Source of the DNA: a virus
DNA length: 24,023 nt
Direction: 5' to 3' (one strand)
Virus record (IMG/VR): IMGVR_UViG_3300032240_001380
Span: 1-24,023 of that record
The notes beneath the pieces were generated by a model. It had not been told where the DNA came from and did no database searches. It saw nothing but the letters and a program-made list of their open reading frames with translations. The position numbers and the translations under genes are program-made. Positions 21,141 to 23,784 of this stretch are shown piece by piece. How positions within the stretch are numbered: the stretch's first letter is position 1; each line of letters starts with the position of its first letter.

Positions 21141-21171
21141 ATAGTTTTTCTTAGTAGAAAATCACAAACCC
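21129..21171 (+). promoter_or_regulatory. antiterminator hairpin of an attenuator-like switch
   Basis: GGGTTTGTG (21129-21137) is exactly complementary to CACAAACCC (21163-21171). The 3' arm shares bases 21166-21171 with the 5' arm of the terminator at 21166-21194, so the two hairpins exclude each other. Confidence 0.6.
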
Positions 21172-21197
21172 TAGACCTAAAAAATCTAGGGTTTTTT
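21166..21197 (+). terminator. intrinsic terminator ahead of the tRNA genes
   Basis: AAACCCTAGA (21166-21175) pairs perfectly with TCTAGGGTTT (21185-21194) around a 9-nt loop, ending in six T (21192-21197). It lies between the leader ORF and the first boxA and tRNA. Confidence 0.88.
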
Positions 21198-21208
21198 GTT
21201 CTTTAAAA
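21197..21208 (+). promoter_or_regulatory. boxA antitermination site, copy 1
   Basis: TGTTCTTTAAAA matches the rRNA-leader boxA bound by NusB-S10. It is the start of a 25-nt sequence (21197-21221) repeated exactly at 21703-21727, each ahead of tRNA genes. Confidence 0.65.
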
Positions 21209-21224
21209 ATTTGAGTTGTTTTGT

Positions 21225-21298
21225 TGGCGCATGGTGTAATGGTAACACAGCGGACTTTGACTCCGCTATTTCAGGTTCGAGCCCTGATGCGCCTGCCA
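21225..21298 (+). tRNA. trnQ: tRNA-Gln(TTG)
   Basis: Anticodon loop CTTTGAC between GCGGA and TCCGC. Acceptor GGCGCA pairs with TGCGCC, leaving a T1-T72 mismatch; a weak first pair is usual for Gln tRNAs. CCA is encoded. Reads CAA (and CAG by wobble). Confidence 0.95.
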
Positions 21299-21301
21299 AA
21301 T

Positions 21302-21391
21302 GGAAGTGTGGCCGAGTCCGGTTTATGGCACTAGTCTTGAAAACTAGCGAACAGAAATGTTCCGTGAGTTCGAATCTCACCGCTTCCGCCA
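21302..21391 (+). tRNA. trnS: tRNA-Ser(TGA)
   Basis: 90 nt with a long variable arm. CTAGT/ACTAG stem, loop CTTGAAA. Acceptor GGAAGTG with CGCTTCC. CCA encoded. Confidence 0.95.
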
Positions 21392-21424
21392 TATAAAAAC
21401 ATATTAGTAGTGTGTTTCTATATG

Positions 21425-21512
21425 GGAAGATTGGCCGAGTGGTTAAGGCAGCGGTTTGCTAAACCGTCATTCAGAAATGGGTGGATCAGTTCGATTCTGA
21501 TATCTTCCGCCA
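21425..21512 (+). tRNA. trnS: tRNA-Ser(GCT)
   Basis: 88 nt with a long variable arm. Loop TTGCTAA between GCGGT and ACCGT. Acceptor GGAAGAT with ATCTTCC. CCA encoded. Together with the TGA isoacceptor it covers AGY and TCN serine codons. Confidence 0.95.
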
Positions 21513-21517
21513 AATGT

Positions 21518-21594
21518 GTGGGTGTGCAACTGAAAGGCGAGGTAACGGATTGCAAATCCGTATTATGCAGGTTCGAATCCTGTCACCCACTCCA
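21518..21594 (+). tRNA. trnC: tRNA-Cys(GCA)
   Basis: Loop TTGCAAA between ACGGA and TCCGT. Acceptor GTGGGTG with CACCCAC, discriminator T as expected for Cys. CCA encoded. Confidence 0.95.
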
Positions 21595-21620
21595 TGTTAG
21601 TAAATTGAAAACAAAAGTAG

Positions 21621-21638
21621 TGTTGCAATCTGGCAACA
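21621..21638 (+). repeat. TGTTGC...GCAACA hairpin upstream of promoter, copy 4
   Basis: TGTTGC (21621-21626), AATCTG loop, GCAACA (21633-21638), 7 nt before the -35 of the promoter at 21646. Same arms as the hairpin at 18288. Confidence 0.5.
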
Positions 21639-21645
21639 AACAGAC

Positions 21646-21673
21646 TTGACAGTTCGGCCAAAGTCTGTATAAT
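21646..21673 (+). promoter_or_regulatory. sigma70 promoter with TTGACAGTTCGGC element
   Basis: TTGACA (21646-21651), 16-bp spacer starting GTTCGGC, TATAAT (21668-21673). It transcribes boxA copy 2, tRNA-Glu and the structured RNAs. Confidence 0.88.
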
Positions 21674-21702
21674 ACGATGCATAGATTGAGAAATCAATCA
21701 AA

Positions 21703-21714
21703 TGTTCTTTAAAA
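21703..21714 (+). promoter_or_regulatory. boxA antitermination site, copy 2
   Basis: TGTTCTTTAAAA, about 24 nt downstream of the predicted RNA start of the promoter at 21646 and 19 nt before tRNA-Glu. Part of the 25-nt direct repeat with 21197-21221. Confidence 0.7.
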
Positions 21715-21732
21715 ATTTGAGTTGTTTAATAT

Positions 21733-21807
21733 GCTCGGTTCGTCTATCGGTTAGGACGCTGCCCTTTCAAGGCGGAAAGACCAGTTCGATTCTGGTACCG
21801 AGTACCA
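21733..21807 (+). tRNA. trnE: tRNA-Glu(TTC)
   Basis: Loop CTTTCAA. Acceptor GCTCGGT with ACCGAGT (G1-T72 wobble), discriminator A, CCA encoded at 21805-21807. The CCA is also the first three bases of the 20-bp helix that closes the next RNA. Confidence 0.95.
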
Positions 21808-22019
21808 TATTAAATTACATTAGGTTACCAACTCCAGTAGGTGACTTATTTGGTTGAAACACAGGCCGCTGTGAACCAGTTATAAGTTACATGAAGCAAT
21901 CCGACTGTGCTGGATTAAGTTGAATCGTAATGTGGAAGTTGTCTTATCGGCAGACGAAGCCGTGAGAAGCCAGATGAAGTTCTGGAACGACAATGACATC
22001 CTAGTGTAATTTAATATGG
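21805..22019 (+). ncRNA. structured RNA A, unrecognised
   Basis: Closed by a 20-bp helix, 21805-21824 with 22000-22019 (one G-U). Internal helices: GTGACTTAT 21841-21849 with 21882-21890; TGGTT 21851-21855 with AACCA 21874-21878; CACAG 21860-21864 with CTGTG 21869-21873 around GCCG; AATCC 21898-21902 with GGATT 21912-21916; ATGT 21930-21933 with ACAT 21996-21999; GTTGTC 21938-21943 with GACAAT 21989-21994; CGGC 21948-21951 with GCCG 21959-21962; CCAGA 21970-21974 with TCTGG 21981-21985. Most of the sequence is paired and no ORF fits. It is transcribed with tRNA-Glu. Family unknown; the position recalls T4 RNA C/D. Confidence 0.75.
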
Positions 22020-22172
22020 TATCATTGTTAAGTGTTATCAGGGTATCGTTATGGGACGCCATGACTATGCGGGCCTAACTGTGCGAGGAACAGGTCCTGA
22101 TATAACCGTTATTCGCTTGTGAGTGTTAGCTACATTGTTCACAAATTGACACGATAACACTTAACAATGATA
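22020..22172 (+). ncRNA. structured RNA B, unrecognised
   Basis: Closed by a perfect 20-bp inverted repeat, 22020-22039 with 22153-22172, whose first base directly follows the last base of RNA A. Inside: GTTAT 22048-22052 with ATAAC 22102-22106, stacked on GGGAC 22053-22057 with GTCCT 22094-22098; CTGT 22079-22082 with ACAG 22090-22093; TTGTGA 22117-22122 with TCACAA 22139-22144. It reads as a multi-branch junction on a long stem. No coding potential. tRNA-Lys begins 7 nt after it. RNase III trimming of both long stems is possible. Confidence 0.75.
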
Positions 22173-22178
22173 AAGTTT

Positions 22179-22252
22179 GGGAGTATAACTTAGTGGTAAA
22201 GTAACCGGCTTTTAACCGGTAAACCAGAGTTCAATTCTCTGTGCTCCTACCA
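22179..22252 (+). tRNA. trnK: tRNA-Lys(TTT)
   Basis: Loop CTTTTAA between ACCGG and CCGGT. Acceptor GGGAGTA with TGCTCCT (two G-U). CCA encoded. Confidence 0.93.
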
Positions 22253-22264
22253 GTTGAATACAAA

Positions 22265-22358
22265 AACGAAAATGTGCGATTCGTTCTCTGTAAAGAGTTT
22301 AACAAGGGTTTGATGTGGTAATGCCTTCTGCATCATGTAATAGGCAATTCCTTGTTAG
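22265..22358 (+). ncRNA. structured RNA C with pseudoknot-like fold, unrecognised
   Basis: In the 117-nt gap between tRNA-Lys and tRNA-Tyr. Hairpins AACGAA 22265-22270 with TTCGTT 22280-22285 and CTCT 22286-22289 with AGAG 22294-22297. Then TTAACAAGG 22299-22307 closes with CCTTGTTAG 22350-22358. Within it, TGATGT 22311-22316 pairs with GCATCA 22330-22335, while loop bases TGCC 22322-22325 can pair with GGCA 22343-22346, an H-type pseudoknot. No ORF. Confidence 0.55.
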
Positions 22359-22369
22359 CATTAAGTTTC

Positions 22370-22454
22370 GGAGAGCGAGAAGCATTGGTGACTTCAGCAG
22401 ACTGTAAATCTGTCGCCTCAGGCATACGGGGTTCGAATCCCTGGTTCTCCACCA
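22370..22454 (+). tRNA. trnY: tRNA-Tyr(GTA)
   Basis: 85 nt with a long variable arm. Loop CTGTAAA between GCAGA and TCTGT. Acceptor GGAGAGC with GTTCTCC. CCA encoded. Confidence 0.95.
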
Positions 22455-22458
22455 ATTT

Positions 22459-22533
22459 GGTCTCATAGTATAATGGTCAGTATAGCGGCTTGTCACGCCG
22501 TTGATAGGAGTTCGATTCTCCTTGGGACCGCCA
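22459..22533 (+). tRNA. trnD: tRNA-Asp(GTC)
   Basis: Loop TTGTCAC between GCGGC and GCCGT. Acceptor GGTCTCA with TGGGACC, discriminator G as expected. CCA encoded. Confidence 0.95.
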
Positions 22534-22540
22534 AGTTTAT

Positions 22541-22614
22541 AGCGGGTTAGAGTAACGGTAATTCAGGAGTCTCATAAGCTCCAGATGGGGGTTCGATTCC
22601 CTCACCCGCAACCA
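22541..22614 (+). tRNA. tRNA with CAT anticodon, initiator-like features (Met/fMet or Ile2)
   Basis: Loop CTCATAA between GGAGT and GCTCC. The T arm GGGGG/CCCTC fixes the acceptor as AGCGGGT with ACCCGCA, so position 1-72 is an A-A mismatch. The D stem GAG/TTC gives an A11-U24 pair. Both are initiator-type marks, but the three G-C pairs at the bottom of the anticodon stem are absent. Could also be lysidine-modified tRNA-Ile2. CCA encoded. Confidence 0.85.
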
Positions 22615-22620
22615 AGTTAT

Positions 22621-22696
22621 TGTCTAGTAGCTCAGTCGGTAGAGTAGCGGACTGTTAATCCGTTGGTCGTAGGTTCGAACCCTACCTAGACAGCCA
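22621..22696 (+). tRNA. trnN: tRNA-Asn(GTT)
   Basis: Loop CTGTTAA between GCGGA and TCCGT. Acceptor TGTCTAG with CTAGACA, discriminator G. CCA encoded. Confidence 0.95.
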
Positions 22697-22697
22697 T

Positions 22698-22772
22698 GGT
22701 GATGTAGCACAGCGGTAGTGCAATTGCTTCATACGCAATAGGTCGTTGGCTCGAATCCAACCATCACCACCA
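22698..22772 (+). tRNA. trnM: tRNA-Met(CAT), elongator-type
   Basis: Loop TTCATAC between ATTGC and GCAAT. Acceptor GGTGATG with CATCACC. D stem GCAC/GTGC (C11-G24, elongator type). CCA encoded. tRNA-Ile2 is the alternative reading of a CAT anticodon. Confidence 0.92.
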
Positions 22773-22778
22773 AGTTTT

Positions 22779-22852
22779 GCCCTAATAGTTAAATGGTATA
22801 ACAGTTGCCTTGTAAGCATCAATTCGGAGTTCGATTCTCTGTTGGGGCACCA
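22779..22852 (+). tRNA. trnT: tRNA-Thr(TGT)
   Basis: Loop CTTGTAA. Acceptor GCCCTAA with TTGGGGC. One mismatch (T28-T42) in the anticodon stem. CCA encoded. Confidence 0.92.
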
Positions 22853-22861
22853 TTTTTTTAT

Positions 22862-22938
<77 letters not shown>

Positions 22939-22942
22939 ATTC

Positions 22943-23017
22943 GGGGGATTGGCGTAATTGGGAACGCAGTAGCTTTGCAAGCTTCAGTCAGGAGTTCGAA
23001 TCTCCTATTCTCCACCA
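22943..23017 (+). tRNA. trnA: tRNA-Ala(TGC)
   Basis: Loop TTTGCAA. Acceptor GGGGGAT with ATTCTCC carries the G3-U70 pair that defines alanine identity, and discriminator A. CCA encoded. One mismatch in the anticodon stem. Confidence 0.94.
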
Positions 23018-23018
23018 G

Positions 23019-23051
23019 TTTAAGTTTACAATAAAGTTTTTTAAGTTTACA
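23019..23051 (+). repeat. 12-nt direct repeat between tRNA-Ala and tRNA-Arg
   Basis: TTTAAGTTTACA occurs at 23019-23030 and 23040-23051 with 9 nt between. AT-rich spacer; no promoter recognised. Confidence 0.5.
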
Positions 23052-23053
23052 GT

Positions 23054-23130
23054 CGGTCGTTAGCTCAACGGATTAGAGCACAAGGCTACGGACCTTGGGG
23101 TTGAGAGTTCGAATCTTTCACGACCGGCCA
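23054..23130 (+). tRNA. trnR: tRNA-Arg(ACG)
   Basis: Loop CTACGGA between CAAGG and CCTTG. Acceptor CGGTCGT with ACGACCG. CCA encoded. A34 should be converted to inosine by host TadA to read CGT, CGC and CGA. Confidence 0.95.
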
Positions 23131-23135
23131 AAAAT

Positions 23136-23210
23136 AGCCGTGTAGCTCAGAGGAAGAGCAATCGCTTGATAAGCGATAGGTCGACATTTCGAAATTGTCC
23201 ATGGCTACCA
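23136..23210 (+). tRNA. trnI: tRNA-Ile(GAT)
   Basis: Loop TTGATAA between ATCGC and GCGAT. Acceptor AGCCGTG with CATGGCT. CCA encoded. Confidence 0.95.
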
Positions 23211-23212
23211 AT

Positions 23213-23287
23213 ATCTCGCTAGTGTTAACGGCAGCACAATGGTCTCCAAAACCACAAGACGGGGTTCGAATCCCTGGCGGGATGCCA
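23213..23287 (+). tRNA. trnW: tRNA-Trp(CCA)
   Basis: Loop CTCCAAA. Acceptor ATCTCGC with GCGGGAT, discriminator G as expected for Trp. 3' CCA encoded. Confidence 0.95.
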
Positions 23288-23313: not shown

Positions 23314-23784
23314 ATGCGTAAGTTAAATTTAGAAGAAGTCAGACAATTTATCGAAGCACAAACACCACAAACAAAAATTTATATTGGTTGTGATTCGGAG
23401 AGAGTTAAGATAGATAAAGTATGGTACGCAGATTATATCACGGCTATTGTAGTTCACATTAATGGTAATAATGGTTGCAAGTTATTTGGTGAAGTTATCC
23501 GTGAAAGAGACTATGACCAAAAACAAAATAAACCTAGATACAGATTAATGAATGAAGTTTATAAAGTTTCGGAATTGTATTTGAAATTGGCCGATGTTTT
23601 GGTCGATAGAGTAGTGCAAGTCCATTTGGATATTAACCCAAGTGAAATGCATGGTTCTAATTGCGTTATTCAAGAAGCAATTGGATACATTCGTGGAACT
23701 TGTAATGTTATACCTCTTGTTAAACCAGAAGCGTTTGCGGCATCATATGCAGCAGACCGATTTAAAGGATTGAAAGCAGCATGA
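23314..23784 (+). CDS. RNase H-fold protein, YkuK/DUF458-like
   Basis: 156 residues from ATG 23314; the frame extends back to 23239, but that would run through tRNA-Trp. KIYIGCDSERVKIDKVWYAD (21-40) has the first catalytic-type Asp (27) of an RNase H fold. AIVVHINGNNGCKLFGEVIR is the next strand pair, and VVQVHLDINPSEMHGSNCVI carries further acids in the DUF458/YkuK arrangement. The domain is complete. A nuclease role is likely but its substrate is unknown; being embedded in the tRNA operon suggests RNA, possibly the structured RNAs or tRNA. The stop overlaps the next start (ATGA). Confidence 0.75.
   Translation: MRKLNLEEVRQFIEAQTPQTKIYIGCDSERVKIDKVWYADYITAIVVHINGNNGCKLFGEVIRERDYDQKQNKPRYRLMNEVYKVSELYLKLADVLVDRVVQVHLDINPSEMHGSNCVIQEAIGYIRGTCNVIPLVKPEAFAASYAADRFKGLKAA

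Follow-up and report, generated by a model that had tools for sequence, protein, structure and literature searches.

RNA A is a real, conserved, plus-strand structured RNA family that is absent from Rfam, and both its identity and its structure are near certain. The element lies in a 24-kb IMG/VR virus fragment (hereafter the window, meaning the whole stretch of 24,023 nucleotides that was analysed), in which 17 tRNAs are clustered at 21225-23287. The gap between tRNA-Glu and tRNA-Lys holds 371 nt without a credible gene, and these correspond to RNA A (215 nt, 21805..22019) and to the abutting RNA B (22020..22172), both on the plus strand. About 100 distinct homologues, an unusually stable fold and covariation within the helices carry the assignment of RNA A.

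Secondary structure

The MFE of RNA A is -71.8 kcal/mol, with a z-score of -5.78, and none of 200 dinucleotide shuffles folded to an equally low value. The original prediction had described a gene-free, highly structured stretch, and the element does fold far better than its shuffles, but it does not stand alone, as the equally structured RNA B abuts it. The conserved shape is a long rod composed of P1-P2-P3-P4-P5-P5b-P6, with a side domain formed by P7, P8 and P9 (21938-21994) between P2 and the 3' strand of P1, all on the plus strand. The closing helix P1 has the anticipated 20 bp (21805..21824 / 22000..22019) with exactly one G-U pair, and P2 (21825-21828 / 21927-21930), P3 (21829-21832 / 21919-21922) and P4 (21834-21837 / 21910-21913) are stacked on it. 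These three short helices are 98.5-100% paired in 38 sequences, and their 3' strands (21910..21930) contain the conserved GUAAUG motif. The rod continues with the 9-bp P5 (21841-21849 / 21882-21890), P5b (21851-21855 / 21874-21878) and the P6 hairpin (21860-21864 / 21869-21873), which is capped by a GCCG loop at 21865-21868. In the side domain, the 6-bp P7 (21938-21943 / 21989-21994) encloses P8 (21948-21951 / 21959-21962) and P9 (21970-21974 / 21981-21985).

The GCCG hairpin and the 9-bp and 6-bp helices that had been proposed were all located, but the conserved fold differs from the MFE fold. P2-P4 and P7 take the place of some of the MFE pairs, which makes the constrained fold about 2 kcal/mol less stable (-69.6 vs -71.8 kcal/mol). 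Among the bases that are invariant or almost so are GGUU, UAGG, CAUGAA, GUAAUG and GACG. A T-loop-like GUUCAAAA segment was also considered as a conserved feature and was rejected, being present in one clade and lacking family-wide conservation.

Compensatory changes in the helices

In 38 diverse RNA A sequences, the 45 tested pairs of P1-P6 and P8 are paired in 97.4% of 1683 cells, and 25 of them show two-sided changes. Pairing falls to 30-37% when the partners are slid by 1-3 columns, and the covariation score of 0.394 compares with 0.157 after shuffling and with at most 0.089 after sliding. Both sides change in all five pairs of P6 and in three of the four pairs of P8, which is 100% paired. 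Significance was assessed against a tree-aware null obtained by simulation along the tree in the style of R-scape, using a custom script with approximate E-values; eight pairs of RNA A and 17 of RNA B are significant, all of them nested and predominantly Watson-Crick or wobble. The 20-bp helix, for which the original prediction had called for a check of compensatory changes, has 10 of its 20 pairs changed on both sides in the 38 sequences and is significant under the same null.

P7 was tested without an alignment because the sequence alignment shifts there, and its native helix score of 6.68 exceeds the maximum of 5.49 reached in 5000 partner permutations. Compensatory exchanges in this helix include the replacement of TTGATAGA/TCTATCAA by CAAAAGC/GCTTTTG. 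P7 is missing from the RNAalifold structure underlying model R2, since the sequence alignment misplaces this helix. Since paired mutations preserve the shape, RNA A is a real functional RNA. In addition, G-U pairs are far more frequent than A-C in the helices (351:72 in RNA A and 258:51 in RNA B), therefore selection acts on the plus-strand RNA, and this asymmetry rules out the wrong strand as well as a palindrome at the DNA level.

Occurrence in phage genomes

Scanning 2.9 million viral contigs with patterns, followed by an iterated profile search, returned 134 matches to RNA A, about 100 of them distinct, in IMG/VR contigs that belong to large tailed phages. The related RNAs are about 208-263 nt long, and the phages that carry them are known only from environmental DNA. 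Among 24 large records searched, one is without any match, and each of the other 23 contains one full-length RNA A. The first relatives were reached via the PF04308 gene that follows the array, which led to 80 tRNA-rich viral loci, several of them with RNA A or RNA B. This gene (window 23314-23781) specifies an RNase H-like protein encoded in about 300 viral contigs, in many of which it lies inside or directly after tRNA arrays, and the protein is a candidate for an enzyme that processes the RNA of such arrays.

At E-values up to 10, neither RNA A nor RNA B matches any Rfam family, the only matches in the window being tRNAs, and RNA A is likewise without a match in the relatives L131, L205, L141 and L096, as expected for the unrecognised RNA of the original prediction. 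A blastn search of 50,697 GenBank phage records with four RNA A queries recovered no homologue, the matches being tRNA-Glu or a 34-bp chance match, and RNA B has no homologue by blastn in the same records. The RNA B pattern is absent from GTDB representative genomes, and three pattern matches to RNA A in these bacterial genomes were dismissed as chance, with no CM score above 4.6 bits. We found no description of the RNA A family in the open-access literature; an earlier description available by subscription only is possible.

The phages carrying RNA A probably infect Betaproteobacteria, a host range inferred because most of them carry a permuted tmRNA. This two-piece tmRNA of the betaproteobacterial type scores over the Rfam cut-off in 14 of 22 records and gives any match at all in 21 (examples are L058:155-625, L198:6079-6480 on the minus strand and L231:4107-4552), encodes tags such as ANDEQFALAA and is often situated 0.4-2 kb 5' of RNA A. 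Aquatic phages are known to encode permuted tmRNAs (PMC9004378). Like the betaproteobacterial permuted tmRNA (RF01850), RNA A is a structured RNA encoded by these phages, but the two are unrelated in sequence and structure, and RNA A contains neither a tag reading frame nor a tRNA-like domain.

RNA B and other structured RNAs of the arrays

RNA B is a second new structured RNA family, with a fold z-score of -6.13, 141 matches in IMG/VR representing about 100 distinct sequences, and no sequence relationship to RNA A. It is closed by a perfect 20-bp helix (22020-22039 / 22153-22172) and contains a GACG-capped hairpin (22048-22065), whose GACG loop is found in 70 of 75 copies; these elements are likewise on the plus strand. 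RNA B directly follows RNA A or, when RNA A is absent, overlaps tRNA-Glu by the final 4-5 bases of the latter. Of 73 copies of RNA A, 61 have a GNCG loop on P6, with GCCG, GACG and GGCG interchanging, and most P8 loops contain GACG. GNCG-capped hairpins are therefore common to P6 and P8 of RNA A and to the first hairpin of RNA B, and the simplest reading is that these loops serve as a recognition element shared by both RNAs.

Further families were observed in the arrays, where gaps between tRNAs were clustered with a coverage requirement; plain single-linkage merges the gaps via the shared promoter and boxA. Family E (about 126 nt; L095:2090-2218 on the minus strand, L039:3238-3361, L027:537-660) has a long closing helix and the conserved core AAACGGUAA...CGUUG...GCAAAUAGU, and either replaces RNA B after RNA A or follows tRNA-Glu alone. 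Family F, a hairpin of about 78 nt with conserved CGCCUGGAUACUUC...GCACUAGGUCCUGCAACC and a 3' U-run (L101:9574-9651 on the minus strand, L049:5404-5481), lies mostly between tRNA-Asp and tRNA-Glu, and family G (about 80 nt, core GAUGGAUAGUUUCUGUUUAGUACAGUAUCCGAAG; L007:2644-2721, L192:12605-12692) comes after tRNA-Lys. The spacer between tRNA-Lys and tRNA-Tyr (window 22253-22369) folds weakly (z -2.1) and has conserved relatives elsewhere in the arrays of L022, L025, L012, L011 and L005.

Operon context

The strong promoter and boxA that had been claimed to precede RNA A were both recovered, with a hairpin between them. A sigma-70-type promoter (TTGACA-16 nt-TATAAT, 21646..21673, plus strand) agrees with the consensus at 12 of 12 positions and is predicted to drive tRNA-Glu, RNA A, RNA B and onward. 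It is followed on the same strand by a boxB-like hairpin (GATTGA-GAAA-TCAATC, 21684..21699), by boxA TGTTCTTTAAAAATTTG (21703..21719), an rrn-type antitermination signal as judged by its sequence, and by tRNA-Glu(UUC) (21733..21807, predicted by ARAGORN); the next tRNA of the operon, also on the plus strand, is the predicted tRNA-Lys (22179..22252). The promoter/hairpin/boxA module is conserved 5' of tRNA-Glu in related arrays. A second copy of boxA at 21197-21221, identical over 25 nt, precedes tRNA-Gln and has no RNA A behind it. This copy is placed directly 3' of a terminator-like hairpin, CCCTAGACC...TCTAGGGTTTTTTG (both within window 21160-21221), and the first promoter, before tRNA-Gln, is possibly attenuated.

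RNA A copies are located in tRNA arrays or at their heads. Where a boxA is recognised, its distance to RNA A falls into two tight modes: at 39-53 nt nothing lies between, and at 88-103 nt there is one tRNA between them, usually tRNA-Glu. In the window, the CCA of tRNA-Glu (21805-21807) doubles as bases 1-3 of RNA A, as had been noticed originally, and this arrangement is conserved, because P1 reads CCA...UGG in 49 of 53 tRNA-adjacent copies, the CCA belonging to the tRNA. Copies without an upstream tRNA (38 of 91) mostly have CUA...UAG instead (28 of 38). P1 is 17-22 bp long, with a median of 21 pairs in tRNA-headed and 19 in leader-headed copies. The overlap may put tRNA maturation and helix formation in competition; however, this is not the main purpose of RNA A, because the 38 copies lack an upstream tRNA. 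A tree from which P1 was excluded gives nine switches between the tRNA-headed and the hairpin-headed context by parsimony, at least six of them on well-supported branches, and RNA A is therefore a unit of its own that is independent of the tRNA.

In the hairpin-headed copies (L115, L131, L181, L179, L043 and others), an upstream hairpin uses the 5' end of RNA A as its 3' strand, and it forms because its upstream strand repeats the 3' end of RNA A, as in CATATAG...CTATATG...CATATAG and the compensated variant CATATGG...CCATATG...CATATGG. All seven pairs of this leader helix are present in 22 of 33 such copies, compared to 1.8 expected. The leader pairing is mutually exclusive with P1, and a growing transcript would resolve toward P1. 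As a general switch the alternative leader pairing was rejected, since the tRNA-headed copies, including the window, show no excess of it; the leader match of the window, TTTAATAT:ATATTAAA, is common only to close relatives.

Relation to known phage and bacterial RNAs

GOLLD and ROOL are ncRNAs found at phage and prophage tRNA islands (PMC12286853), and RNA A resembles them as a highly structured ncRNA, supported by covariation, that adjoins phage tRNA genes. They are, however, over about 600 nt long, whereas RNA A has 215 nt arranged as a single rod with a side domain, is tied to boxA and not merely near tRNAs, and shows no sequence or CM match to either. The shorter length and the lack of identity that were stated at the outset thus hold, with the Rfam models of both unmatched at E-values up to 10. 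The comparison that had been drawn with T4 RNA C (rnaC, 139 nt) and RNA D (rnaD, 119 nt) is likewise apt for the type of site: these are small, stable RNAs that occur in tandem after tRNA-Arg in the T4 tRNA cluster, just as RNA A and RNA B occur in tandem after a tRNA. T4 RNA C ends in a hairpin that resembles the tRNA T-arm, which RNA A lacks, and kinship is ruled out by the searches, as rnaC and rnaD have no profile similarity to RNA A or RNA B (nhmmer without filters) and no cmsearch match.

The bacterial rrn leader (PMC10250234) shares more of the architecture, namely a promoter, a boxB-like hairpin, boxA, a long closing helix (>17 bp) and a neighbouring tRNA, and in both cases the pairing of the helix is conserved more than its sequence. 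E. coli rrn depends on a leader-trailer helix longer than 17 bp, inside which the RNase III site is located, and the leader strand of pre-16S follows boxA at a fixed spacing (PMC10250234). In RNA A, boxA and a boxB-like hairpin are found just 5' of P1, which is a >17-bp helix with compensatory changes. Unlike the rrn leader, RNA A encloses only about 200 nt and no rRNA, and its helix can include the CCA of a tRNA.

A possible mode of production and action

These features lead us to propose that RNA A is an ncRNA coupled to boxA and produced in the manner of a small rRNA, whose core acts in trans as an RNP, a mechanism that, taken as a whole, we regard as evenly balanced between right and wrong. 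After initiation at the consensus promoter and transcription of the boxB-like hairpin and boxA, RNA polymerase would be loaded with the rrn antitermination factors of the host. Next, beside boxA, the 5' strand of P1 would emerge, followed about 200 nt later by its 3' strand, at which point the 17-22-bp P1 would close. The pairing of P1 is shown by covariation, and it may correspond to the leader-trailer helices of pre-16S and pre-23S rRNA. RNase III might cleave P1, or P1 might be trimmed while the 3' end of tRNA-Glu matures and RNase P cleaves the following tRNA; either event would free the core. The biology of boxA is carried over here from rrn of E. coli, and the processing of P1 by RNase III is suggested by analogy. 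The released core would act in trans, most likely as an RNP in which a protein contacts the GNCG-capped hairpins of RNA A and RNA B; it is the conserved unpaired motifs and loops that point to such a role. The fixed position of RNA A could partly derive from shared ancestry of the array head.

A different view holds that RNA A, with or without RNA B, works in cis on the nascent transcript, either as an antitermination or processivity element comparable to put of HK022 and EAR, or as a timer of tRNA-Glu maturation through sequestration of the CCA. RNA A always lies within about 100 nt of a recognisable boxA at the start of the operon, this fixed place would also suit a leader, tRNA-headed copies hold the CCA inside P1, and each genome has a single copy. 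However, the second boxA of the window (21197-21221) lacks RNA A behind it, sequestration of the CCA is not general given the copies without an upstream tRNA, the invariant loops and core motifs deep inside P1 would be needless for masking it, and tRNA-headed copies have no conserved alternative leader pairing, so that a role in cis seems to us possible though doubtful. RNA A could instead act as a decoy or inhibitor of an RNA-binding host factor engaged in defence or processing, for instance a nuclease that targets tRNA or dsRNA. Its phage tRNA neighbours, long double-stranded rod, single copy and consensus promoter would be in keeping with this, as would its expression together with the tRNAs that such factors destroy, and adenovirus VA RNA provides a non-phage precedent for a viral dsRNA-like ncRNA (PMC6599070); with a hypothetical defence target and hosts that are only probable, we consider this explanation unlikely.

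That RNA A is the subunit of a multimeric particle, as GOLLD and ROOL are, is suggested by a genomic site of the same kind (PMC12286853), by its high structure and by its conserved, exposed hairpin loops, and is nevertheless improbable in view of its length of 215-263 nt compared to more than 600 nt, the unmatched Rfam models of both RNAs and the lack of a palindromic loop across the family, in which GCCG, GACG and GGCG replace one another. Finally, the lack of a known homologue might point to a chance structure, or to a decayed gene or intron without function, an idea refuted by the covariation test and rendered scarcely credible by the strand asymmetry, the about 100 copies and the fixed position as well. 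Returning to the proposed production in the manner of rRNA, it might be extended, tentatively, to a phage 'mini-rRNA' system of large phages of Betaproteobacteria, in which an rrn-like unit with an rrn-type promoter, a boxB-like hairpin, boxA, leader-trailer helices and tRNAs yields the trans-acting ncRNAs A, B, E, F and G. At least two of these would share the GNCG element for one protein, and the system would hijack or protect the translation machinery.

Concluding remarks

Unexplained stable RNAs have accompanied phage tRNA arrays since T4 RNA C and D. To conclude, RNA A is of this known kind, while the family itself appears to be new, as do its architecture coupled to boxA and its connection with a sister family. 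The overlap with the CCA is conserved where a tRNA is present, yet there are copies without a tRNA, and therefore it is not the purpose of RNA A. A family of about 100 members with a structure proven by covariation, a fixed position relative to boxA and one copy in each genome, joined by the sister family RNA B with the same hairpin caps, makes the role of tRNA-linked phage ncRNAs testable. If RNA A is indeed produced like an rRNA, it would mean that phages reuse the antitermination and folding machinery of host rRNA for ncRNAs of their own.
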